From NCBI GenBank assembly GCA_937934295.1, contig CALHAI010000006.1, forward strand, positions 186,001 through 250,000: a stretch of 64,000 nucleotides of DNA, written 5' to 3'. The notes beneath the pieces were generated by a model, which worked only from the letters and a program-made list of their open reading frames with translations, searched no databases and was not told the origin of the DNA. This DNA is from an uncultured Blastocatellia bacterium. Lineage in GTDB: Bacteria; Acidobacteriota; Blastocatellia; HR10. Position numbers and translations under genes: made by a program. Below, piece after piece: positions 9,377 to 38,904 of the stretch. Within the stretch, counting starts at the first letter, position 1. Each line of letters opens with the position of its first letter.

Positions 9377-9406
9377 TTGACAACTCGCGGGGATGGAGCA
9401 TATGAT
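9377..9406 (+). promoter_or_regulatory. Promoter of the tRNA-Pro/acyP/apt/tRNA-Arg unit
   Basis: TTGACA (9377-9382), 18-bp spacer, TATGAT (9401-9406). Initiation about 7 nt later would fall at roughly 9413, eight bases before the mature tRNA 5' end. No other convincing promoter is seen before acyP or apt. Confidence 0.75.
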
Positions 9407-9420
9407 TTTGAGTCAGCCTT

Positions 9421-9498
9421 CGGGGCGTAGCTCAGCCTGGTGAGAGCGCACGGTTCGGGACCGTGAGGTCGGTGGTTCAAATCCACTCGCCCCGACCA
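9421..9498 (+). tRNA. tRNA-Pro (anticodon CGG), CCA encoded
   Basis: The cloverleaf folds completely: acceptor CGGGGCG/CGCCCCG, D-stem GCTC/GAGC, anticodon stem CACGG/CCGTG around loop TTCGGGA, and T-arm GGTGG-TTCAAAT-CCACT. Discriminator A at 9495 is followed by an encoded CCA (9496-9498). The next gene's start codon is only 7 nt further on, so 3' processing of this tRNA defines the 5' end of the acyP message. Confidence 0.97.
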
Positions 9499-21271: not shown

Positions 21272-22867
21272 TCACACTGTATGCGCGTCAGGAATCGCTT
21301 CTCCAGCGATCCTCGGCAGTCGAAAGAGCAGACCGCACAGGAACCAATGGTAAGCATTGTTCACGTAGTTCTGATACACGGGCAGCCCCAAGAAGAAATA
21401 GGGGAAGTGCAACAGCGCGAGAAAGAGCGCCAGCGCGGCTGCGGGTCCGAAGAATCGAGACCCCTCGAGCCGCCATGCCGTACGCGCGGCAGCGAAAACC
21501 AGAACCGCCGTCCACCACAGCCAGAAGGCGACCCCGATCCCCCCCCATTCCCAGATGACTGAGGCGTAGCCCCCTTCCACGCGATAAAGGGATCCCGTCT
21601 CCCCTTGGTAGAAGTAGTCCAAGCCATACAGATACTGCAGGCCGAGCGAAGCCGTCCCCGTGCCGTGCCCGAAGACGCGCGATTCCTGAATGGCGAAGAG
21701 AATATCGCGCCAATAGACCTTGGGGCGCCAGCTCACCTCCGTCTCTCGGGCGATCGGCGAGAGCGTCTCGACGCAGAACCGATAGAGGGCGATGAGGCGC
21801 TCCGGGCGGACCAGGGCGAGCCCAACAAGCGCCAGAACAATCCCCCCGCCGATCTTCCCGATGGGAAATGAAGGCTTCCGAAACCGAGCGGTCCACGTGG
21901 CGAGCCGATCTCGCCCAGCCTTCATGGCGAGGATGAGGAGCGCCGCACCGACGAGAAGGAGCGCAGCGCGCTGTGCGCTCACAATGAGCCCAGCCCCAAT
22001 GAGCGTGAACGCGAGCCATAAGCTCCGTTCTTGGCGGCGACGCACCGATAGCACGCGACACGCGAGCGCGCGAATCCTCGGCCTCGGCTCTTCCCACAAC
22101 GCCCGCTCTTCGTCGCGGTGAAGGCCCTGCCAATACGAGAGCGCTCCCAGCCCGAGGAAGAACAAAACGAACAAATATTGCGCGAATCGCCCGGCATCCA
22201 CGAAGACCGACGTCGGCCGAGGAACGGACATCTGACTCTCCGGAGCCACGCGAATCAATTCCAGCCGGAGTCCGGGGACGAACCCCTTTGGGTTCAAGAG
22301 GTCCAATCCCATCAGCGCCTGAAGCACGCCGAGCGCCGCAACCCCTCCGCCAAGAAGGAGCGCGAACAGCAGGAAGCGGCGCAGCCGCTCCTCGGAGTCG
22401 AAGTACGCATAGCCGAGATACAGCAGCGGGACGTAAAGGAAGTACATGCGCATCCCGATGACAGGGATGAGCGGATGCTCGATCTGCGGATTGAAGCATT
22501 CGGCCACTGCCAGCACGATCAGGGCGACCAGGGGCGTGCGAATCGGATTGTGAAACTTTCCGGTGCGCCGGTTCCTCATGCGAGCGAAGAGGAAGCTCAC
22601 ATAGGTCAGTAAGATCAACGCATCTTTCACTCCGTACAAGACGATGCGATTCCCCAAGTACTTGCGGATCAAATCCTCCACGACGATCCAAGCGAAGAAG
22701 CTCAGGATGCCGAATCGCCAATTTCTCAGAATCTGAAGGCCCAGTGCCCCGGCGCCGACGAAGACGAAGACGACGACTACCGTTCGCCAATCGGCTTGAA
22801 GCAAAAGGTGTGCCAAACCGAACCCAGCGAACACGGCGACGGCGAATGCCATCGCCGAAGCTTTCAT
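21272..22867 (-). CDS. Polysaccharide polymerase / O-antigen ligase-like membrane protein
   Basis: 531 aa from the ATG at 22867, which shares a base with the upstream stop (TGATG). About twelve hydrophobic spans. A large periplasmic loop after 'VRPERLIALYRFCVETLSPIARETEVSWRPKVYWRDILFAIQESRVFGHGTGTASLG' contains the Arg/His-rich 'RxxxW...FGxGxG' pattern of the Wzy_C/O-antigen ligase family. It would polymerise lipid-linked repeat units at the outer face of the cytoplasmic membrane. A second ligase/polymerase-type protein is encoded at 26518-27906, so one of the two may have another transfer role. Confidence 0.78.
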   Translation of the reverse strand: MKASAMAFAVAVFAGFGLAHLLLQADWRTVVVVFVFVGAGALGLQILRNWRFGILSFFAWIVVEDLIRKYLGNRIVLYGVKDALILLTYVSFLFARMRNRRTGKFHNPIRTPLVALIVLAVAECFNPQIEHPLIPVIGMRMYFLYVPLLYLGYAYFDSEERLRRFLLFALLLGGGVAALGVLQALMGLDLLNPKGFVPGLRLELIRVAPESQMSVPRPTSVFVDAGRFAQYLFVLFFLGLGALSYWQGLHRDEERALWEEPRPRIRALACRVLSVRRRQERSLWLAFTLIGAGLIVSAQRAALLLVGAALLILAMKAGRDRLATWTARFRKPSFPIGKIGGGIVLALVGLALVRPERLIALYRFCVETLSPIARETEVSWRPKVYWRDILFAIQESRVFGHGTGTASLGLQYLYGLDYFYQGETGSLYRVEGGYASVIWEWGGIGVAFWLWWTAVLVFAAARTAWRLEGSRFFGPAAALALFLALLHFPYFFLGLPVYQNYVNNAYHWFLCGLLFRLPRIAGEAIPDAHTV

Positions 22868-23940
22868 CACAAAACCCTGATGGGGCGTCGCCCGGTGCAT
22901 TCCGCGCTCCCCACGGTGGAGTGGCGCATCGCCACGCGCCATCGCCAATAGGTCCGCAAGCCCTGCCACTTCCCCGCCAGCGAAAGACGAAGCATTTCGT
23001 CCCACGATCGGCGAGGAGTGCGCAGGGCTTCCCAAAGAGCCGTCAACAGCCCCAACGACCGACGCTCCCCCCGCACGAGGAAGTAGAGCAGGAAAGCGAG
23101 CTTCCCGAAGGGGGGGAGATGCTTCAGCATGAGATAAGTGTGGTTATGGCTGTAGGTGTAGATGAGTCGCTTGAGGTCTTCGCGCGCTTCCTCCCGAATG
23201 GCGCGCGGCGCTTCAAAATGATGGACGCGACATTCGGGATCGAAGAGGATGCCATATCCGAGCCGCCGGACTTGAAAGGCGATGTCCAGCTCGAATTGAA
23301 GGCCATAGCCGATGAAGCGCGGATCCACAGTGATGCGCTCGAGGATGGCTCGCCGGATGGCCGCATTGGCTCCTTGGAATCCGGCGACTGGTACCGGTGC
23401 GCGCGCCTCTCCCGGTTGCTCAAATCCTCCGATGTATCGACCATACCAAGTAACGGCCCCCACGCGCTTCACCGGAGGCAGGTCCACGGGATGGCCATTC
23501 CTGTACGGGATGATCCGACCAGCGACGATCCCCACCCTCGGGTCGGCGAAATGGCGGCTTCCTCGCTCGATCCACTCCGGTTCTGCCTCTGCGTCATCGT
23601 CTATGAGGAAGATCAGCTCCACATCCTCGCGCGTGCGGAGCACCTCCACCCCTTGCTTGAAGGCCCATACGGGGCCAGGGAGGGTGACGCTCACCATATG
23701 GATCTCCACCTGCGATCCCGAAAGAGCGCGCTCCTCTTTCGACGTACTGAGTCTCTCATCTCGGAAGCGCTGCAGGAGGGCGATGGACGCCTCATCGTCG
23801 TCCCGCACGACGACTACGATGCATCGCGGGCGACGAGTCTGCTGAAGGACGGAGTGCAGACAGCGTTCCAGATAGGCCGGCCGACGATATGTCGGGATGA
23901 GCACCGCGGTCTCCGGATGCGCCGGCCGCTCTTCGCTCAC
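22867..23940 (-). CDS. Family 2 glycosyltransferase
   Basis: The frame is open to 24045, but the GTG at 23940 overlaps the flippase stop as GTGA, the junction type used throughout this locus, and gives a 357-aa protein starting just before the catalytic domain ('TAVLIPTYRRPAYLERCLHSVLQQ'). 'LIFLIDDDAEAEPEWIE' is the metal-binding DxD region and 'VPVAGFQGANAAIRRAIL' plus 'FIGYGLQFELDIAFQVRRLGYGILFDPECRVHHFE' the acceptor loop with ED-type base. It resembles rhamnosyl/galactosyl GT2 enzymes of capsule loci. Donor unknown. Confidence 0.85.
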   Translation of the reverse strand: MSEERPAHPETAVLIPTYRRPAYLERCLHSVLQQTRRPRCIVVVVRDDDEASIALLQRFRDERLSTSKEERALSGSQVEIHMVSVTLPGPVWAFKQGVEVLRTREDVELIFLIDDDAEAEPEWIERGSRHFADPRVGIVAGRIIPYRNGHPVDLPPVKRVGAVTWYGRYIGGFEQPGEARAPVPVAGFQGANAAIRRAILERITVDPRFIGYGLQFELDIAFQVRRLGYGILFDPECRVHHFEAPRAIREEAREDLKRLIYTYSHNHTYLMLKHLPPFGKLAFLLYFLVRGERRSLGLLTALWEALRTPRRSWDEMLRLSLAGKWQGLRTYWRWRVAMRHSTVGSAECTGRRPIRVL

Positions 23941-29338: not shown

Positions 29339-30091
29339 CTATCGCGCCGGAACCTCAGAGAGCTCCGCTCCCTCTACAATCGCCTTCGGATTCTCGATGA
29401 ACAACGCACGAGCAACCGCTTCACCATACGTTCGAGCGATATCCTCCCACGCGCGCCGCAGTTTCGGCGGACGCGCCCGCAGGCCATGCGCATCGGATGC
29501 AATGGCGTGCACCCATCCGGCTTCGACCCAGCGCGCCGCGACGCGCTGCGCCTCCCGCCCGTGATCTCCCAGGAGAGAAGGGGCATCTACCTGGACACCG
29601 CACCCCTGTTCCACGAAGCGGCGCAGCCGCTCAGGCCGATACCGCAGCGCCACGTTCCGTTCGGGATGCGCGAGGATCGGTCGAATGCCGGCCGTCAGCA
29701 GCTCGAACAAGAACGACTCAACGCCCGGAGGAATGACCTCGGGCGGAAACTCCAGAAGCACATATGATGTGCCGTTCAGAAGAAGCGCGCGATCGCCATC
29801 CGCCGGCGAACACATCATGCGTTCGGCCCAGGCTCTCAGCTCGGGGACGATCCGCACCTCCGCGCCCGGAAGGACGCGCAAGCGCCCCTCAAGAGCTCGA
29901 TTCAACTGCGCGATGCCCTCCCGGATGCGCTCGGGCTCGGGATTCGGATAGCGTGCCCAAAAGACGTGTGGCGTGGTCACGGCGAGCGTGACCCCCTCTT
30001 CCGCGAGCCGAAGGCCAAGAGCGAGGGCCTCCTCCCACGTCCTCGGTCCATCGTCCACGCCAGGCAGAAGATGGCAATGCAAGTCGATCAC
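29339..30091 (-). CDS. PHP-type tyrosine-protein phosphatase (CpsB/YwqE-like)
   Basis: 250 aa. 'MIDLHCHLLPGVDDGP' is the canonical start of the manganese-dependent CpsB/CapC phosphatases, with the HxH metal ligands; 'TPHVFW', 'GAEVRI', 'PILAHPERN' and 'AIASDAHG' provide the others. It removes phosphate from the tyrosine cluster of the cognate BY-kinase and so controls polymer length and export. It overlaps the kinase stop as ATGA, which is consistent with a kinase-phosphatase pair. Confidence 0.93.
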   Translation of the reverse strand: MIDLHCHLLPGVDDGPRTWEEALALGLRLAEEGVTLAVTTPHVFWARYPNPEPERIREGIAQLNRALEGRLRVLPGAEVRIVPELRAWAERMMCSPADGDRALLLNGTSYVLLEFPPEVIPPGVESFLFELLTAGIRPILAHPERNVALRYRPERLRRFVEQGCGVQVDAPSLLGDHGREAQRVAARWVEAGWVHAIASDAHGLRARPPKLRRAWEDIARTYGEAVARALFIENPKAIVEGAELSEVPAR

Positions 30092-32382
30092 AAGGCTTCT
30101 TCCGAAGATGAACGATCCTCGGCGATCGCCGGAGCGGGTTCTTCCACCTCGCGATCGCTCGCGTAGTAATAGCGATAGTAGTAATACGAGTACCCATCCT
30201 GCGTCACATCCACGCGGTTGAGGACGACGCCGAAGATGCGCGCGTTCACATCCAAGAGCGCTTGATGAGCGCGATGCACCAGCTCGCGCGGCGTCTCCCC
30301 ACAGCGGATGATAAGGATGACGCCGTCCACCAGAGCTGAGAGCACGAGCGCATCGGGCGTGGAAGCCGGCGGAGAATCCACAAGGACGAAGTCGTAGCGT
30401 TCGCCCACCTGCGCAATCAGCTCGCGCATCTTAGCTGACCCAAGCAGCTCCGACGGATTGGGCGGGATCGCGCCCGCTGGGATCACGAAGAGATTCTCCG
30501 CCGGCTGATGAAGGACGACGGCGTCCACCTCGAGCGGACGTGTCAGATAGGCCGAGAGCCCCGGATAGTTCTTCACATTCAGGGCCTTGTGGAGACCGGG
30601 CTTGCGCAGGTCGCCGTCAATGAGCAGGACGCGCGCGCCCATCTGCGCGAGCGAGATCGCCGTGTTCACAGCAGTCGTCGTCTTCCCCTCACCGGGGCCG
30701 CTTGAGGTGAAGAGGATCGTACGCGGCGGATGTTCGGCGTGCGAGAGGAGGACCGACGTGCGCAGCGTGCGGAAGGCTTCGGCGAAACTCGAACGCTGCC
30801 GCTGGCTGATGAGAATGGGACGCTCCTCTTCTTTCGCCCGATGGACGCGCGGCAAGGCGGACCACCGCCTCCGCTCCAAGCTCTCCAACGCCGGCACCAA
30901 CCCGAGCACCGGCAAGCCAAGCAGCCGATCCACATCCTCGGTCGATTTGACCGTGTTGTCCAGATACTCGACGAAGAGGGCGAGGCCGACGCCGAGAATG
31001 AGCCCGACGAGCACGCTGAGCCCGATGTTGAAGAGCTTGCGGGGCCGAGCCGGATGCAGGGGGACCTCAGCCTTGTCGAGAATTTGAATGTTGGTCGTCG
31101 TCAAGGTCGAGAGCAGTTTCACATCGTTGAGCTTTTCGAGCAGGCCCTCATAGAGTTGCGTCGTCACCTCAACCTCGCGCTTGCGCAGGCTCAATTCGAT
31201 GGCCCGTTCGTTCTGACGAAGCGTCTCGGCCCGCTGCCGTTCCAAGGCCGCGCGCAGATCGTTCTCCCGCCGCACGGCCGCCTTATACTCGGCCTCGATG
31301 TTGGCCAGAATACGCCGTTTGGCCAGCGCCAGTTGACGCTCGGCCTCGGCGATCTGTTCGCGCACGCGAGCGACGCGCGGATGCGTCGGCTGATATTCGA
31401 CATTGAGCTGCGCCAGCTCTTGCCGCAGTTCAGCCAAGCGGGCGTTCAACGCCTGAACCTGCGGATCGGCTAACACGGGCGGCAGCGCATCCACCTCGCC
31501 TTCGCGACTCAACCGATAGAGCGTCTCGGCGCGAATGCGATCGGTCTCGGCCTCGATCAAGCGTCGGTTCAAGTCGGCCAATCGCTCGACCGTGATCGTT
31601 TGATTCTCGCTGAGTTGCACGATCTCGTTCTCGCGGCTGTAGCGGACCAATTCCTCTTGCGCCTTCTCCGCGCGATCGCGTAAAAGAGCCAGTTGCTCCT
31701 GCAACCATTCAGTCGCCTTGCGGGTCGAATCCGAGCGCGCTTCAAGCATATACTCGCCGTACTGGGTGAACAACTCATTGACGGCACGCGCCGCCAACTG
31801 GGGATCGTGCGCGCTGTATGTGACGGCCACCACGCGCGTGTTGCGCACGAGTTCGACCTTGAGGTTCGCCAGAAAGCGATCGATGAGCAACACGCGCTGC
31901 CGATCCGGATCCGCGGCGCGCGTCGTGATGCCGGCGAACTCCGGATGTCGCTCCAAATGGAGCGCCTCGATGACGCGCCGCGCCAGCTCTCGACTCCGCA
32001 AGACGTTCTGCTGCGTCTCCAGATACTGCGCGTCGTTGGAGGAGAGATCGGCGCCGGTCTCCTTCTCCTGCGTCACCCGCAGCGGCAGTTGCGGATTGAT
32101 GATGATCCGCCCCGTGGCTTCGTAGATGACCGGCAACTGAGACATGCGGATCGTCACGATGGTGACGATCACCAGCAGGACGCTCAGGACGATCCACCGC
32201 CGCTTCTTGATTACCCGCCAGTAGTCGAGCAAGTGGACATCGCGCTCGCCCCCCTCCTCATCGCGAAAAGCGCTCGCCGGATAAAACTTCATCACCTGTC
32301 CCGACATCGCTCCGGGAGCCTGCAGTGATGATCGTTCCGATGGCGTCGCCGGAAGAGAAGGCTTTTCGTTGGATTCCGTCAT
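30088..32382 (-). CDS. Polysaccharide co-polymerase with tyrosine autokinase domain (Wzc/GumC-like)
   Basis: 764 aa. Wzz-type chain-length domain with a first membrane span near residue 60-80, a long periplasmic coiled-coil (about 190-430), a second span ('LFNIGLSVLVGLILGVGLALFVEYL'), then a cytoplasmic BY-kinase. Walker A 'SSGPGEGKTTTA', Walker A' 'LLIDGDLRKPG' and Walker B 'FVLVDSPP' are intact. The tail 'DGYSYYYYRYYYASDRE' holds eight tyrosines, the autophosphorylation cluster. It sets chain length and couples polymerisation with the Wza-like exporter encoded next to it. Ribosome site GGAGGGAG is well placed. Confidence 0.95.
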   Translation of the reverse strand: MTESNEKPSLPATPSERSSLQAPGAMSGQVMKFYPASAFRDEEGGERDVHLLDYWRVIKKRRWIVLSVLLVIVTIVTIRMSQLPVIYEATGRIIINPQLPLRVTQEKETGADLSSNDAQYLETQQNVLRSRELARRVIEALHLERHPEFAGITTRAADPDRQRVLLIDRFLANLKVELVRNTRVVAVTYSAHDPQLAARAVNELFTQYGEYMLEARSDSTRKATEWLQEQLALLRDRAEKAQEELVRYSRENEIVQLSENQTITVERLADLNRRLIEAETDRIRAETLYRLSREGEVDALPPVLADPQVQALNARLAELRQELAQLNVEYQPTHPRVARVREQIAEAERQLALAKRRILANIEAEYKAAVRRENDLRAALERQRAETLRQNERAIELSLRKREVEVTTQLYEGLLEKLNDVKLLSTLTTTNIQILDKAEVPLHPARPRKLFNIGLSVLVGLILGVGLALFVEYLDNTVKSTEDVDRLLGLPVLGLVPALESLERRRWSALPRVHRAKEEERPILISQRQRSSFAEAFRTLRTSVLLSHAEHPPRTILFTSSGPGEGKTTTAVNTAISLAQMGARVLLIDGDLRKPGLHKALNVKNYPGLSAYLTRPLEVDAVVLHQPAENLFVIPAGAIPPNPSELLGSAKMRELIAQVGERYDFVLVDSPPASTPDALVLSALVDGVILIIRCGETPRELVHRAHQALLDVNARIFGVVLNRVDVTQDGYSYYYYRYYYASDREVEEPAPAIAEDRSSSEEAL

Positions 32383-32401: not shown

Positions 32402-33421
32402 TCATCGTAAGAGCCAGATCAACTGCGAGGCCGCCCCCAAGCTGAACGCGTTCAACATCGCCATTCCCACGTTGCGCATCGAGGAGGAAGGCACGAAGAC
32501 GATGTCGTTCGGCTCAAGCGGCACATCCTTCACCTGATCGCGCTCCACCTTCTCCAGGTCCACGACGATCTCCACGCGCTCGCTCCGCCCCGGTACATGC
32601 CGCAGGATCGTCACCTTGTTCTTCTGGGCGTGCGGGCGCAGGCCGCCGGCGAGTGCGATCGCCTTGGTGAGCGTCATATCGCCGCGAATCCGAAAGGCGT
32701 TCGGATTCACCACGTTCCCCGTCACGAAGATCTGGTCAGCCTCGGGCACGCTCACGATGTCGCCCGGGTACACGCGCATGTTAACCAGGTCCCACTGTCC
32801 GCTCAACAACTGCCGCAGGTCCACAATCTCCAATTGCGGCTCCGCTTCGCTTCCGCCCAAGGGGTGATCCGCTTCGGCCGGGCGCACGGGCTGCTTCCCC
32901 GTGCGGATGATGTGCACCGTATTGCCGGCGCTCTCGGTCAACCCCCCGGCCGCCGCCAGCAGATTCAGCAGGCGGGTGCCACGCACAATCTCATACCGAT
33001 CCGGTTTGCGGACTGCGCCGATGACAGCCACAAATCGGCTACGCGACTCCTTCACGCGAACGACGACCTGCGGATTCTTGAACAAAGTCGTGAGTCTCTC
33101 GCGAATGATCTCGGCCAGTTGATGCTCCGTGTAACCGGCCGCCTTGATCGGTTCCGGGAAGGGAAGGATGCGAATGTAGCCCTTGAGTGAGACGCGCACC
33201 TCGCCGCTCAAGTCCGGCTGCTCGAAGACGCGAATCTCCAACAGATCTTCAGGACCGATGACATATTCCTCGTCCTCATCCGGCAGCGAGAGCACCGATG
33301 GGGCCCCTTGCCGTCCCTCCTGAACGACAGGAGCCGATGGGCGCGCGCCCGATGCCTGCAAATCCTCCGCCAGAACGCTCCCCCATACTCCGAACAGCAC
33401 CAGAAGGCTCAAAACCCACAT
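32402..33421 (-). CDS. Polysaccharide export protein (Wza-like, SLBB domains)
   Basis: 339 aa with a signal peptide (cleavage likely after 'GSVLA'); there is no lipobox cysteine, unlike E. coli Wza. 'YVIGPEDLLEIRVFEQPDLSGEVRVSLKGYIRILPFPEPIKAAGYTEHQLAEII' is the Poly_export domain, followed by two SLBB repeats ('FVAVIGAVRKPDRYEIVRGTRLLNLLAAAGG' and 'IFVTGNVVNPNAFRIRGDMTLTKAIALAGG'). It forms the outer-membrane/periplasmic exit channel. The C-terminus has a hydrophobic/amphipathic stretch that may be the membrane helix. Confidence 0.92.
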   Translation of the reverse strand: MWVLSLLVLFGVWGSVLAEDLQASGARPSAPVVQEGRQGAPSVLSLPDEDEEYVIGPEDLLEIRVFEQPDLSGEVRVSLKGYIRILPFPEPIKAAGYTEHQLAEIIRERLTTLFKNPQVVVRVKESRSRFVAVIGAVRKPDRYEIVRGTRLLNLLAAAGGLTESAGNTVHIIRTGKQPVRPAEADHPLGGSEAEPQLEIVDLRQLLSGQWDLVNMRVYPGDIVSVPEADQIFVTGNVVNPNAFRIRGDMTLTKAIALAGGLRPHAQKNKVTILRHVPGRSERVEIVVDLEKVERDQVKDVPLEPNDIVFVPSSSMRNVGMAMLNAFSLGAASQLIWLLR

Positions 33422-33472: not shown

Positions 33473-34468
33473 TTAAAAACCACATCGATTGGCGGCGATC
33501 TCCCGCCCCACTTGTGTCACCACTTCGACAACGCCTCCAGCGGCCAGATCGGCCGGCGTCGCCGCAAAGAACGCCTGGTAATAACCAAGGGAAGGGCCAT
33601 CAGCTCCTGTGACGACATTCAACACTGTCAGGCCGGGAAGCCGATTCCGAAACAGCACGCGAACGATCACGGGCGCGCCGCCAATTGGGGTCGTCCCCAA
33701 CGCGACCCGCCCGATAACCCGCAGCCCATGACCGAACAGCTTCTCCGCTCGACATTCGATCACCAACGGAGGCCGCTCGGTCGTCTCCGGTACGGGCATC
33801 GGCCCCGGCGAATATCCGAGGCGCGCGCGCTCATCCTGCTGTTGAAACGGCCGCATGGCGAGGGCAGTGGCCACTTCCGGCGTAACAGCGCGAAGCGCCT
33901 CGCCCGGCCCGGAGCGCCCGCCCACAGCATGAACGAGCATGGTCTTCTCGCGCACCAAGAGCGAATAGATCGCCGCGCCCTTCGACATTCGCGGATCACG
34001 CGACGGACTTAAGCGAAAGGAGCGATCCGGCCCTTCGACCTCGACATCGTCTTGACTTCGGATCGTCGCCTCACCATAGAGCACGCGCAGGCGTAAGCAC
34101 GAACGCTCGCGCGCAATCCGCACTCGACTGGTCGGGCCGATGAAGATCACCCCACGACCGTCGCGCAACCGCACAAAGGCCAGGCTCGACGTCGTCTCAA
34201 TGTCACTGCCGTCTAAGACGGCGCTCCCCCAAAAGATCGGTACGCCATTGAGCCGCACAAGCCCATCCCCGACGGTGATCACCTCACCGAGGATCGCGCG
34301 CTCAGGAGTCCCTTTCTGCGTTGGCCCCGAAGGATTCAGGACAGGACTTTCGGTCACCGCTACATCCGCCATCTCCGCTGACCCACGGCCCACCCATGTC
34401 CCGACCAGGAGGACAAACCCTGCGCATCCGATCCCCCAGCTCATGACTCGATGTCCGAAGCCCCTCAT
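33473..34468 (-). CDS. Secreted FecR-domain-like protein
   Basis: 331 aa from the ATG at 34468, 7 nt after AAGGAG and overlapping the upstream small ORF as ATGA. A signal peptide or anchor ('VMSWGIGCAGFVLLVGTWVG') is followed by a FecR-like segment: 'GEVITVGDGLVRLNGVPIFWGSAVLDGSDIETTSSLAFVRLRDGRGVIFIGPTSRVRI'. This domain is frequent in periplasmic sensing or structural proteins beside polysaccharide exporters. The C-terminal ~120 residues form a predicted beta domain of unknown type. As first full-length gene of the unit it could monitor the cell envelope; that is inference. Confidence 0.65.
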   Translation of the reverse strand: MRGFGHRVMSWGIGCAGFVLLVGTWVGRGSAEMADVAVTESPVLNPSGPTQKGTPERAILGEVITVGDGLVRLNGVPIFWGSAVLDGSDIETTSSLAFVRLRDGRGVIFIGPTSRVRIARERSCLRLRVLYGEATIRSQDDVEVEGPDRSFRLSPSRDPRMSKGAAIYSLLVREKTMLVHAVGGRSGPGEALRAVTPEVATALAMRPFQQQDERARLGYSPGPMPVPETTERPPLVIECRAEKLFGHGLRVIGRVALGTTPIGGAPVIVRVLFRNRLPGLTVLNVVTGADGPSLGYYQAFFAATPADLAAGGVVEVVTQVGREIAANRCGF

Positions 34469-34665
34469 CCGCTCGCTCCTTCCAGAGCACGTCCGCACGC
34501 GCCGCACGTCCATCTCCGCTCACGCATATCCCCTAGCGCTCCACTTCCCGCCACAAGGAACATTCGTGGGATGCGTCCGCACGCTCCGCAACCCGCCGCC
34601 CATGACTGATGAGGCCACGTCCGCTTCCGCGCCTTTTCACTGCTTGCATACGTTCCCCACTCCAT
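34465..34665 (-). CDS. 66-aa protein with two CxxC motifs (zinc-ribbon-like), probably leaderless
   Basis: The ATG at 34665 lies 9 nt past a strong -10 box, almost at the predicted transcription start, and the TGA overlaps the FecR-like start as ATGA. The product has CGAC at residues 26-29 and again at 54-57, spaced like a zinc ribbon (CxxC-x24-CxxC), each followed by G-R. Its central part is hydrophobic ('PRMFLVAGSGAL'). The motif pair reflects a near-exact 17-bp direct repeat in the DNA, so an alternative is that this is an untranslated regulatory leader. No known family is recognised. Confidence 0.45.
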   Translation of the reverse strand: MEWGTYASSEKARKRTWPHQSWAAGCGACGRIPRMFLVAGSGALGDMRERRWTCGACGRALEGASG

Positions 34666-34673
34666 TGGCCCGT

Positions 34674-34702
34674 ATTGTAGGTTTTGCCTACTGCAATGTC
34701 AA
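34674..34702 (-). promoter_or_regulatory. Main promoter of the exopolysaccharide locus
   Basis: Perfect TTGACA (34697-34702), 17-bp spacer, TACAAT (34674-34679). It is the strongest sigma70-type promoter in the window and faces the 22-kb polysaccharide gene run. Initiation would fall near 34667, two bases before the small CxxC ORF and ~200 nt before the FecR-like gene. Confidence 0.85.
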
Positions 34703-34938
34703 GGAGATTTTGGACGCAACGCCCTTCTCTCGTCAAATCCAGTGCGAGGCCTTCAATGGGAGCCCCCGCTTTCAAGTTAAGTCCACATATTACCGAGCCT
34801 TACGCTGAATCGAGATGCTGCCCAGCTCTCTCCCGACGCGAATCCGTTTTTCTCAGTTAGCCTACAGTATTGATGTGATGCATGAAATCGCCAGAGATGG
34901 TCTTTCGCTGAGTCGTCTCCGTCGCACGTGTGATGGGC

Positions 34939-37021: not shown

Positions 37022-37657
37022 ATGATTCGACGATGGCGAGCGCAAAATCACGCCGAGCGCGAATTCGAGCGCCAAGCGCTGGCGTATCTGGAAGGGCTGT
37101 ACAACTTCGCCATGGCGCTCACGCGAGACCCAACGGAGGCGGAGGATCTGGTCCAGGAGGCCTATCTTCGCGCGTTTCGCGGCGCGGCGCAGAGATTACC
37201 GACCGGCGATATCAAGGCATGGCTCTTCACGATCCTGCGGAACATCTGGATCAACGAGCGACGGCGGAAGCGGCGACAGCCAGATACGGAAGAGCTGGAC
37301 GCCGAAGAGGAGGACGGGGGAATCGGCTGGCGCACCCTGGCCGACGAACGGCATCGCCCGGACATCGTGCATGAACAGAGTGCGCTCGGACAAGAGATTC
37401 GCCGCGCTATCGAGAGTTTGCCCGCTGTCTACCGCGAGGTCATCGTCCTGCGATTCCTGGAGGGATTCAGCTACAGCCAGATCGCAGCGATCACCGGTTG
37501 TCCGGCTGGGACAGTCATGTCGCGCATCAGTCGCGCTCGCGCCGAACTCCGGAAGCGGTTGACCCCTTATCGGGAATCCGTCGCGAGTCCATCGTCGGAT
37601 ACCGGAGAGCGCACGGCGAGTGGGAGGATTCGCGAAGCAGGAGAGACCCATGGGTGA
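37022..37657 (+). CDS. ECF-type RNA polymerase sigma factor
   Basis: 211 aa. Region 2 is visible as 'LYNFAMALTRDPTEAEDLVQEAYLRAFRG' plus 'DIKAWLFTILRNIWINERRRKRR', and region 4 as 'LPAVYREVIVLRFLEGFSYSQIAAITGCPAGTVMSRISRARAELRKRL', a helix-turn-helix that binds the -35 element. Regions 1 and 3 are absent, as in group 4 sigma factors. A Ser/Thr-rich tail of ~25 residues follows. The anti-sigma gene overlaps its end by 8 nt. The regulated genes are unknown; the upstream subtilase is 134 bp away on the same strand. Confidence 0.95.
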   Translation: MIRRWRAQNHAEREFERQALAYLEGLYNFAMALTRDPTEAEDLVQEAYLRAFRGAAQRLPTGDIKAWLFTILRNIWINERRRKRRQPDTEELDAEEEDGGIGWRTLADERHRPDIVHEQSALGQEIRRAIESLPAVYREVIVLRFLEGFSYSQIAAITGCPAGTVMSRISRARAELRKRLTPYRESVASPSSDTGERTASGRIREAGETHG

Positions 37658-38486
37658 GCACGTCGTCCATCTCATCGAGCTGTATTTGGATGAAGAGCTG
37701 CAGGGTGAAGAGCGACGACAGTTCGAGGCGCATGTCGCCGAATGCGCGGAGTGCTGGGCGCGCTTGGAGCGCGAGCAGCGCCTCATGGCCTTACTCGCGC
37801 ATGCGCGGCCGCTCTATGACGTGCCCGAGGGCGTCCGCAGGCACATCGAGCAATTGTGGGCGCGCCCGTCCTGGACCCGGATCCGCGTCTTCAAATGGAT
37901 GCTCGGGTTGACGGCTGTGATCCTCGTGGCGCTTCTCGTCCGAGTTGTCGTTCACGACAACGTTCGTCGTTCGGCAGCCGATCGCGCAAACCACCGTTCG
38001 GAATTTGCCCTTCTGGCCGCGGACACGCATCAACGATGGGTGCGCGGACAGCTCCCGCTCGAGATTCGGAGCCAATCTCCCGAAGAGATCTCGGCCTGGT
38101 TCGCCGATAAGGTTCCCTTCAACCTGAAGCTCCCGAGCTTTCGCGAACTCTCTGGCCAGCCGAAGCCCTACCAACTGGAAGGCGCGCGCCTGGTGGGGTT
38201 CAAAAATGACTATGCCGCCTACATCACCTATCGCATGCGGAATCGCCCGATTTCGCTGCTGGTCACTTCGGAGACGGTCGCTCGCCCTTCCGGAGGCGAG
38301 GAGATTCGCTCCCAGGGTCTCGTCTTCCATTTCGAGGAGCTCAACGGATGGAAAGTCCTCACGTGGTCCGATCGCGGGCTGACCTATGCCTTGGTCTCCG
38401 ACTTCGAAGAACGCGGCCAAGCCTCATGCATAGTCTGTCATCCGAGCGCCAGCGAGCAACGCAAGCTCGAAGACTTGCGACGGTGA
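37650..38486 (+). CDS. Transmembrane anti-sigma factor, zinc-finger (zf-HC2), with periplasmic CxxCH
   Basis: 278 aa from ATG 37650 (AGGAGAG upstream). The cytoplasmic N-terminus has the ZAS zinc motif 'HVAECAEC' (HxxxCxxC, about residues 31-38) in a helical bundle that binds the sigma factor. One membrane span follows ('WMLGLTAVILVALLVRVVV'). The ~160-residue outer domain ends with 'GQASCIVCHPSASE', a CxxCH motif that in exported proteins commonly attaches haem c or forms a redox pair. This suggests control by redox state or haem, which is inference. Overlap with the sigma gene confirms the pair. Confidence 0.88.
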   Translation: MGEHVVHLIELYLDEELQGEERRQFEAHVAECAECWARLEREQRLMALLAHARPLYDVPEGVRRHIEQLWARPSWTRIRVFKWMLGLTAVILVALLVRVVVHDNVRRSAADRANHRSEFALLAADTHQRWVRGQLPLEIRSQSPEEISAWFADKVPFNLKLPSFRELSGQPKPYQLEGARLVGFKNDYAAYITYRMRNRPISLLVTSETVARPSGGEEIRSQGLVFHFEELNGWKVLTWSDRGLTYALVSDFEERGQASCIVCHPSASEQRKLEDLRR

Positions 38487-38502: not shown

Positions 38503-38904
38503 TCACCCAATGTCTCGCGCGGCTTTCTGAGCGAGGCGTTGCCGAAAGCGCGCCAACTCCACCGGGGCGCGCACGTGAGTGCCCTCGCCGATCTTCTCCC
38601 ACTCATCATACGCTTCGACGGCGAAAGTGATCGCGCGCTCGTCCACAGCGATGACTTCGGCGCGGGCGGTCACCGTCATCCCGACAGGCGTCGCCGCCAG
38701 ATGCCGTACCGATACGGCGACGCCGACCGAGATCCATCCATCCGGAAGATACGGCTGGATCGCCTCGGCCGCCGCGACCTCCATCAAGTAGATCATCATC
38801 GGCGTCGCGAAGGCCGCCGGAAGGCGGTCGTCCACACGCGCGATCGTCAATTCCCGCGTCACCGTCCACGTCTTCGTCACCGAAGCGCCGAGCGGAATAG
38901 TCAT
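38503..38904 (-). CDS. Hot-dog thioesterase, FlK-like
   Basis: 133 aa, single hot-dog domain. 'LPAAFATPMMIYLMEVAAAEAIQP' and 'SVRHLAATPVGMTVTARAEV' match the fluoroacetyl-CoA thioesterase group, with the Thr, Glu and His that form the catalytic triad there; 'VEAYDEWEKIGEGTH' is also family-typical. Most members outside the fluoroacetate producer hydrolyse other short acyl-CoAs, so the natural substrate is open. AGGAGG lies 8 nt before the ATG. It is convergent with the anti-sigma gene and divergent from the acyltransferase. Confidence 0.88.
   Translation of the reverse strand: MTIPLGASVTKTWTVTRELTIARVDDRLPAAFATPMMIYLMEVAAAEAIQPYLPDGWISVGVAVSVRHLAATPVGMTVTARAEVIAVDERAITFAVEAYDEWEKIGEGTHVRAPVELARFRQRLAQKAARDIG

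Follow-up and report, generated by a model that had tools for sequence, protein, structure and literature searches.

The exopolysaccharide locus of this uncultured Blastocatellia bacterium raises the question of what lies at its head: a small protein with two CxxC motifs, which a preliminary description had placed there as a possible regulator, or something else that the promoter and start codon have in common with those of related species. The window, that is, the whole stretch of 64,000 nucleotides analysed here, contains on its minus strand a sigma-70-type promoter (34674..34702) composed of TTGACA (34702-34697), a 17-bp spacer and TACAAT (34679-34674), in agreement with the consensus at 11 of 12 positions. 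The strength attributed to this promoter is thus borne out, but it is not the single strongest in the window; this is a tie, because a promoter-like site at 9377 on the plus strand, with an 18-bp spacer and directly 5' of a tRNA at 9421, also reaches 11/12. The ATG of the upstream open reading frame (uORF) occupies 34665-34663 of the minus strand, separated by 8 bases from the -10 hexamer. The start predicted about two bases before the ATG agrees with this geometry, since 34667, 34666 and 34665 are all compatible with the -10 spacing, which would place the first transcribed base within one or two bases of the ATG. The ORF itself runs over 66 codons (34465..34665, minus strand), its TGA stop overlaps the ATG at 34468 as ATGA, and it does encode CGAC twice, all as previously described.

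The source genome (G000) was compared with four members of the same genus (G001-G004) and one of a sister genus (G005). Orthologs of the first structural gene, together with the promoter and leader, are carried by G001, G002 and G003, while both the next gene and the promoter are missing from G004, a genome 73% complete, which is therefore uninformative on the locus. The first structural gene (33473..34468, minus strand) encodes 331 amino acids with a signal-peptide-like start, and is recovered by tblastn at 88% (G001), 77% (G003), 68% (G002) and approximately 41-45% (G005). It starts at 34468 and not at 34513, with a Shine-Dalgarno and start shared by the relatives; the Shine-Dalgarno (34474..34482, minus strand) reads GAAGGAGCG identically in G000, G001 and G003, and GGAGGGACG in G002. 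Annotation tools may pick the wrong start at 34513 (33473-34513). The label FecR-like given earlier to this gene finds no backing, as no Pfam family matches at E<=1, PF04773 included, nor does any NCBIfam model; the only PF04773 match in its own genome is on another contig.

On the same strand downstream follow genes for a Wza-type polysaccharide export protein (32402..33421, minus; Poly_export and SLBB domains), a Wzz/Wzc-type chain-length regulator with a kinase-like domain (30088..32382, minus; Wzz, GNVR and AAA_31), and CpsB, TPR, Wzy, epimerase, flippase-like, glycosyltransferase and carbamoyltransferase proteins. The ORF thus heads a polysaccharide cluster of about 22 kb, as had been proposed, with genes running down to 12677, and their orientation and spacing suggest a single transcript. 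Within the cluster, a 587-aa ORF (21272-23035, minus) has no Pfam match. On the other side, beyond a divergent subtilase gene, an ECF sigma factor gene is followed by one for a zf-HC2 protein, anti-sigma-like (37022-38486, plus), a pair that also adjoins the locus in G001. A protein of the FlK fluoroacetyl-CoA thioesterase family is encoded at 38503-38904 on the minus strand (E 2e-36), and its G005 homologue (74%) lies directly upstream of the first polysaccharide gene.

Does the 66-codon ORF encode a conserved protein? An ORF this long from the uORF ATG has a chance of 0.13-0.14, and its length alone is therefore not notable. The two CxxC motifs are less expected, with a chance of 0.009 within an open 66-codon frame, and they speak in favour of a genuine zinc-ribbon-like regulator of the operon. 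The relatives with the same promoter argue otherwise. Nucleotide identity over the ORF body is 114/151 (75%) in G001, 111/156 (71%) in G003 and 74/156 (47%) in G002, with 22, 17 and 17 further gapped bases, respectively, and frame-breaking indels of 1, 5, 11 and 6 nt are found in G001 and of 6, 9 and 2 nt in G003. The one-base deletion of G001 adjoins the ATG on its 3' side, and the ATG therefore opens a different frame of 48 codons. Residues 2-33 of the 66-aa sequence do align with G001 at 66%, but the frame that encodes the aligned segment has lost its ATG through this deletion and then runs into a stop. In G003 the aligned frame 0 contains four changes to stop codons. No CxxC pairs occur in the ORFs opened by the ATG in G001, G003 and G002.

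Codon-level comparisons point in the same direction. The ratios of nonsynonymous to synonymous changes (N/S) in the ORF frame are 0.60 (G001) and 0.93 (G003), against 0.26 and 0.33 in the first structural gene; across the three frames they are 0.60, 0.82 and 1.24 for G001 and 0.93, 0.67 and 0.83 for G003, and so fail to single out a coding frame or to reveal codon-level selection. GC content by codon position is 0.61/0.72/0.58, highest at position 2, the position at which the eight neighbouring genes have their lowest GC. Database searches with the 66-aa sequence yielded no Pfam model above cut-off (best 14.4 bits vs 27), no NCBIfam model above cut-off (best 9.4 vs 54), and no relative in the PDB beyond one match with E = 0.4; some zinc-ribbon Pfam models score below threshold, weakly (best E 0.03). 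Among 396 genomes of the phylum five match. Besides G000 and G001 there are three with weak matches (E 2e-4 to 9e-4), of which two lie inside frames of 431 and 881 codons and one runs across a stop. We thus discard the zinc-ribbon regulator on account of the frame-breaking indels and the lack of convincing homologues in these searches, and attach very little probability to it. Frame-breaking changes under a shared promoter are the observation by which the protein reading was to stand or fall, and they refute it. Given the indels, the missing cysteine pairs, the absence of codon selection and the GC maximum at position 2, the 66-aa CxxC ORF is not a conserved gene. Lack of conservation also makes a regulatory role of the encoded protein improbable, and we regard the ORF as probably a lineage-specific upstream ORF.

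The pair of CGAC motifs derives from a near-perfect 17-bp direct repeat, which had been put forward as a regulatory RNA element or protein-binding site in its own right. The repeat is real, with 16 of 17 positions identical, a value reached by none of 150 composition-matched sequences. However, it is not kept in the relatives, where the best 17-mer repeats of the leaders have 14, 13 and 13 identities, within the simulated range of 11-15. The fold of the leader RNA is no better than that of shuffled sequences (z +0.32), and Rfam has no match at the locus. An RNA element arising from the direct repeat is ruled out on these three counts, and function of the repeat as such, whether in RNA or as a binding site, appears to us the least credible of the readings considered. 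The same fold score and Rfam search gave no sign of a stable structured leader or attenuator, and no terminator-like site was found in the leader.

What has been conserved lies at the 5' end. A block that begins 5' of the -35, includes the discriminator (ACGGGCC) and ends with the ATG (34663..34712, minus strand) is identical at 48/49 positions in G001, 45/50 in G003 and 45/50 in G002, and identity drops steeply directly 3' of the ATG. The -10-to-ATG distance of 8 nt is unchanged in the four genus members that carry the locus, and CCAATG is present in all four, including G002 with a leader only 47% identical. The -35 and -10 hexamers are identical across five genomes and two genera: G005 keeps AAATCT-N-CTTGACA-17-TACAAT-NNN-GGCC, with no ATG at the matching place, where a GTG opens six codons. 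Scanning for the promoter gave no match in viral contigs and a single matching locus in genome contigs, apparently that of G001. The exopolysaccharide cluster is driven by a strong and conserved promoter, with a transcript that appears to start at the start codon of the uORF.

The promoter also contains a palindrome, GTAGG-CAAAA-CCTAC (34677..34691, minus strand), located between the -35 and -10 with its right arm overlapping the latter. It might be an operator, perhaps a dedicated one, and the regulated feature would then be the DNA, with a repressor or response regulator binding GTAGG-N5-CCTAC and a passive leader. Its arms are intact in G000, G001 and G002, even though the loop bases of G002 differ, and each of the four matching genomes has one such site, which rules out a genus-wide regulon for it (a looser promoter pattern retrieved other, different promoters). 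Yet a 5-bp palindrome is not rare by chance in such a stretch, the overlap of the right arm with the -10 weighs against an operator as well, the left arm is altered in G003, and G005 lacks the palindrome. We thus consider the operator a weak and rather improbable candidate; it can coexist with the leaderless uORF favoured below.

If the peptide is not maintained, is the open frame? Counting from the A of the uORF ATG, the first stop in frame occurs at 198, 144, 165 and 162 nt in G000, G001, G003 and G002, giving uORFs of 66, 48, 55 and 54 codons, while the ATG of the next gene lies at 197, 174, 180 and 181 nt. The interval from stop to next ATG is thus the ATGA overlap in G000 and 27, 12 and 16 nt in the others, the frame being open to at most 27 nt from the next ATG in 4/4 despite the frame-shifting indels. 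The other two frames are fairly open as well, frame 1 having stops within the first 140 nt in 4/4 leaders and frame 2 in 2/4, which weighs against a special status of the ATG frame. Taken singly, the leaders would show such an open frame with a chance of 0.13-0.31; in a neutral simulation, set up with three related leaders and one unrelated, all four frames came within 32 nt of the end before any stop with a frequency of 0.0035, and in runs with G000 open the three others did so in 0.0095-0.014 (three settings, two seeds). These tests were devised after the data had been seen, with the threshold taken from the data and on four leaders, three of them related, and are therefore treated as suggestive. 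At this locus, then, the promoter and the ATG are conserved, the peptide is not, and the frame is open in all four species.

These figures bear on a simpler alternative, in which the leader is untranslated, or its translation irrelevant noise, and the open frame a chance product of a G-rich, stop-poor leader; the retention of CCAATG would then reflect the promoter, of which the first transcribed bases form part. The lack of peptide conservation fits this well, as do the individual chances just given, the Shine-Dalgarno that the downstream gene carries on its own, and the fact that the GGCC of the discriminator reaches G005 and the ATG does not. The joint openness of the four frames despite indels speaks against it, and so does the use of the same promoter-ATG layout to begin real genes in the genus. 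On balance we hold this alternative to be unlikely, though a serious contender.

The evidence for that layout comes from a search of five genomes with the pattern TTGACN-(16-18)-TANNNT-(6-8)-ATG, which returned 58 matches, four of them this locus. All 54 other sites were examined, and as orthologous sites were counted once per genome, the number of independent sites is lower than 54. Frames of at least 100 codons start from the ATG at 29 of the 54, whereas the two remaining frames reach this length at 1 and 9 sites. Four of the G000 sites were checked with Pfam and correspond to an enoyl-ACP reductase, a DsbA-like protein, NADH dehydrogenase chain 3 and a carbamoyltransferase; others begin proteins that we take, from their first residues, to resemble KdsB, YacG and HAD phosphatases. 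Against this, no excess of ATG was found after promoter-like motifs in the five genomes, the 58 matches for ATG comparing with 85 for GAT and 21 for GTA, in line with background trinucleotide frequencies of 0.0141, 0.0224 and 0.0049. Judged from these sequences, the genus clearly uses leaderless initiation, and the promoter-ATG layout would start many real genes.

At the remaining 25 sites the frames are shorter than 100 codons, and some share the layout of the exopolysaccharide locus. As the automatic search for Shine-Dalgarno-led genes after the sites was crude, mainly ORF lengths and inspected sequences were used here. In one orthologous group (A) the short leaderless ORFs have 17, 17, 5 and 5 codons in G000, G001, G002 and G004. 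In another (B) they have 47, 10, 10 and 10 codons in the same genomes and 41 in G003, where the ATG lies 9 nt from the -10, outside the search pattern; the long ORFs of this group continue in frame into the next small protein. For a small membrane-protein-like gene beginning MRERGQLD... (L049:81-221, L058, L059, L060, L061), an ATG is conserved at 8-9 nt from the -10; the leaderless ORF is in frame with the gene in two species, whereas in three it has 10 codons and stops at the Shine-Dalgarno. The orthologous leaders L066 and L078, of G004 and G002, carry leaderless ORFs of 23 and 17 codons that end, respectively, in an ATGA overlap and 12 nt before the Shine-Dalgarno-led ATG.

The explanation we favour, as somewhat probable, is a leaderless uORF whose sequence is arbitrary and which ends at the first polysaccharide gene, itself Shine-Dalgarno-led. 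Transcription would start within one or two bases of the ATG, and 70S ribosomes would initiate on the 5'-terminal AUG without a Shine-Dalgarno. They would then translate an arbitrary peptide, of the four lengths given above, through the leader of approximately 175-200 nt, terminating either at the Shine-Dalgarno-led ATG with which the first structural gene begins or shortly before it. Selection, if any, would act on the 5' AUG and on the open path to the next start. The start of transcription, the translation of the uORF and any effect of it are what we infer from this arrangement. Translation of the uORF might couple to or feed the first gene of the operon, or it might keep ribosomes behind RNA polymerase. 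The Shine-Dalgarno of the first gene is unpaired in the minimum-energy fold; this gene has a good site of its own, coupling is therefore not needed, and it would add to the gene's own initiation. With 86 G and 40 C, the leader is rich in G and poor in C. Rho loading sites differ from it in this respect, and the version in which ribosomes protect the transcript from Rho is therefore weakened.

Such an arrangement would probably be of an already known kind. In mycobacteria, leaderless small ORFs are linked to the next gene by RTGA, sometimes with the linkage kept and the sequence unconserved, according to Shell et al. (2015; PMC4633059). As in those coupled ORFs, an AUG stands at the predicted 5' end, the peptide is unconserved while the layout is kept, and the short ORF ends at or near the next start (ATGA in G000). 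Unlike them, the present ORFs belong to a different phylum, are predicted from sequence and are longer (48-66 codons); G000 alone shows the exact overlap, the relatives leaving 27, 12 and 16 nt between stop and start. Zheng et al. (2011; PMC3160421) predicted leaderless genes in all three Acidobacteria genomes covered, at 9.7-19.4% (mean 13.3%). These resemble our locus in having a -10-like signal shortly before the start codon, but that work concerns annotated genes, whereas here the ATG begins an unconserved ORF that precedes a gene with a Shine-Dalgarno. In Mycobacterium tuberculosis, a ribosome profiling study (PMC9094748) uses GC skew between codon positions 3 and 2, positive in functional genes, to mark codon-selected ORFs; this skew is negative in our ORF. 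Like the pervasively translated short 5' ORFs described there, ours has no signature of coding selection; unlike them, it is predicted from the DNA, and its ATG is conserved in four species. Leader-peptide attenuators, as exemplified by the ilvB1 uORF (PMC13236596) and the cysteine-responsive leaderless ORFs cited there, likewise combine a long leader with a uORF in front of the operon, but our locus has neither conserved regulatory codons nor a terminator-like site, and its fold is not above chance. Our search of the literature combining leaderless with Acidobacteria or Acidobacteriota found, judged by titles and abstracts, no report of a leaderless uORF for the phylum.

At this locus a plausible-looking CxxC protein turns out not to be a gene, and the 5' AUG is the part worth testing. 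More broadly, we tentatively propose that this genus maintains leaderless uORFs, whatever their sequence, as a device at the heads of operons, that of the exopolysaccharide genes among them. Selection would then act on nothing but the 5' AUG and a path without stops to the next Shine-Dalgarno, and 70S leaderless initiation would set translation of the first gene; we think this generalization doubtful rather than probable. If the uORF is translated, sequence-independent leaderless uORFs would extend from mycobacteria to a lineage of Acidobacteriota and to the control of polysaccharide synthesis, and promoter-ATG spacing together with openness of the frame across species would offer a cheap genome-wide test for them.
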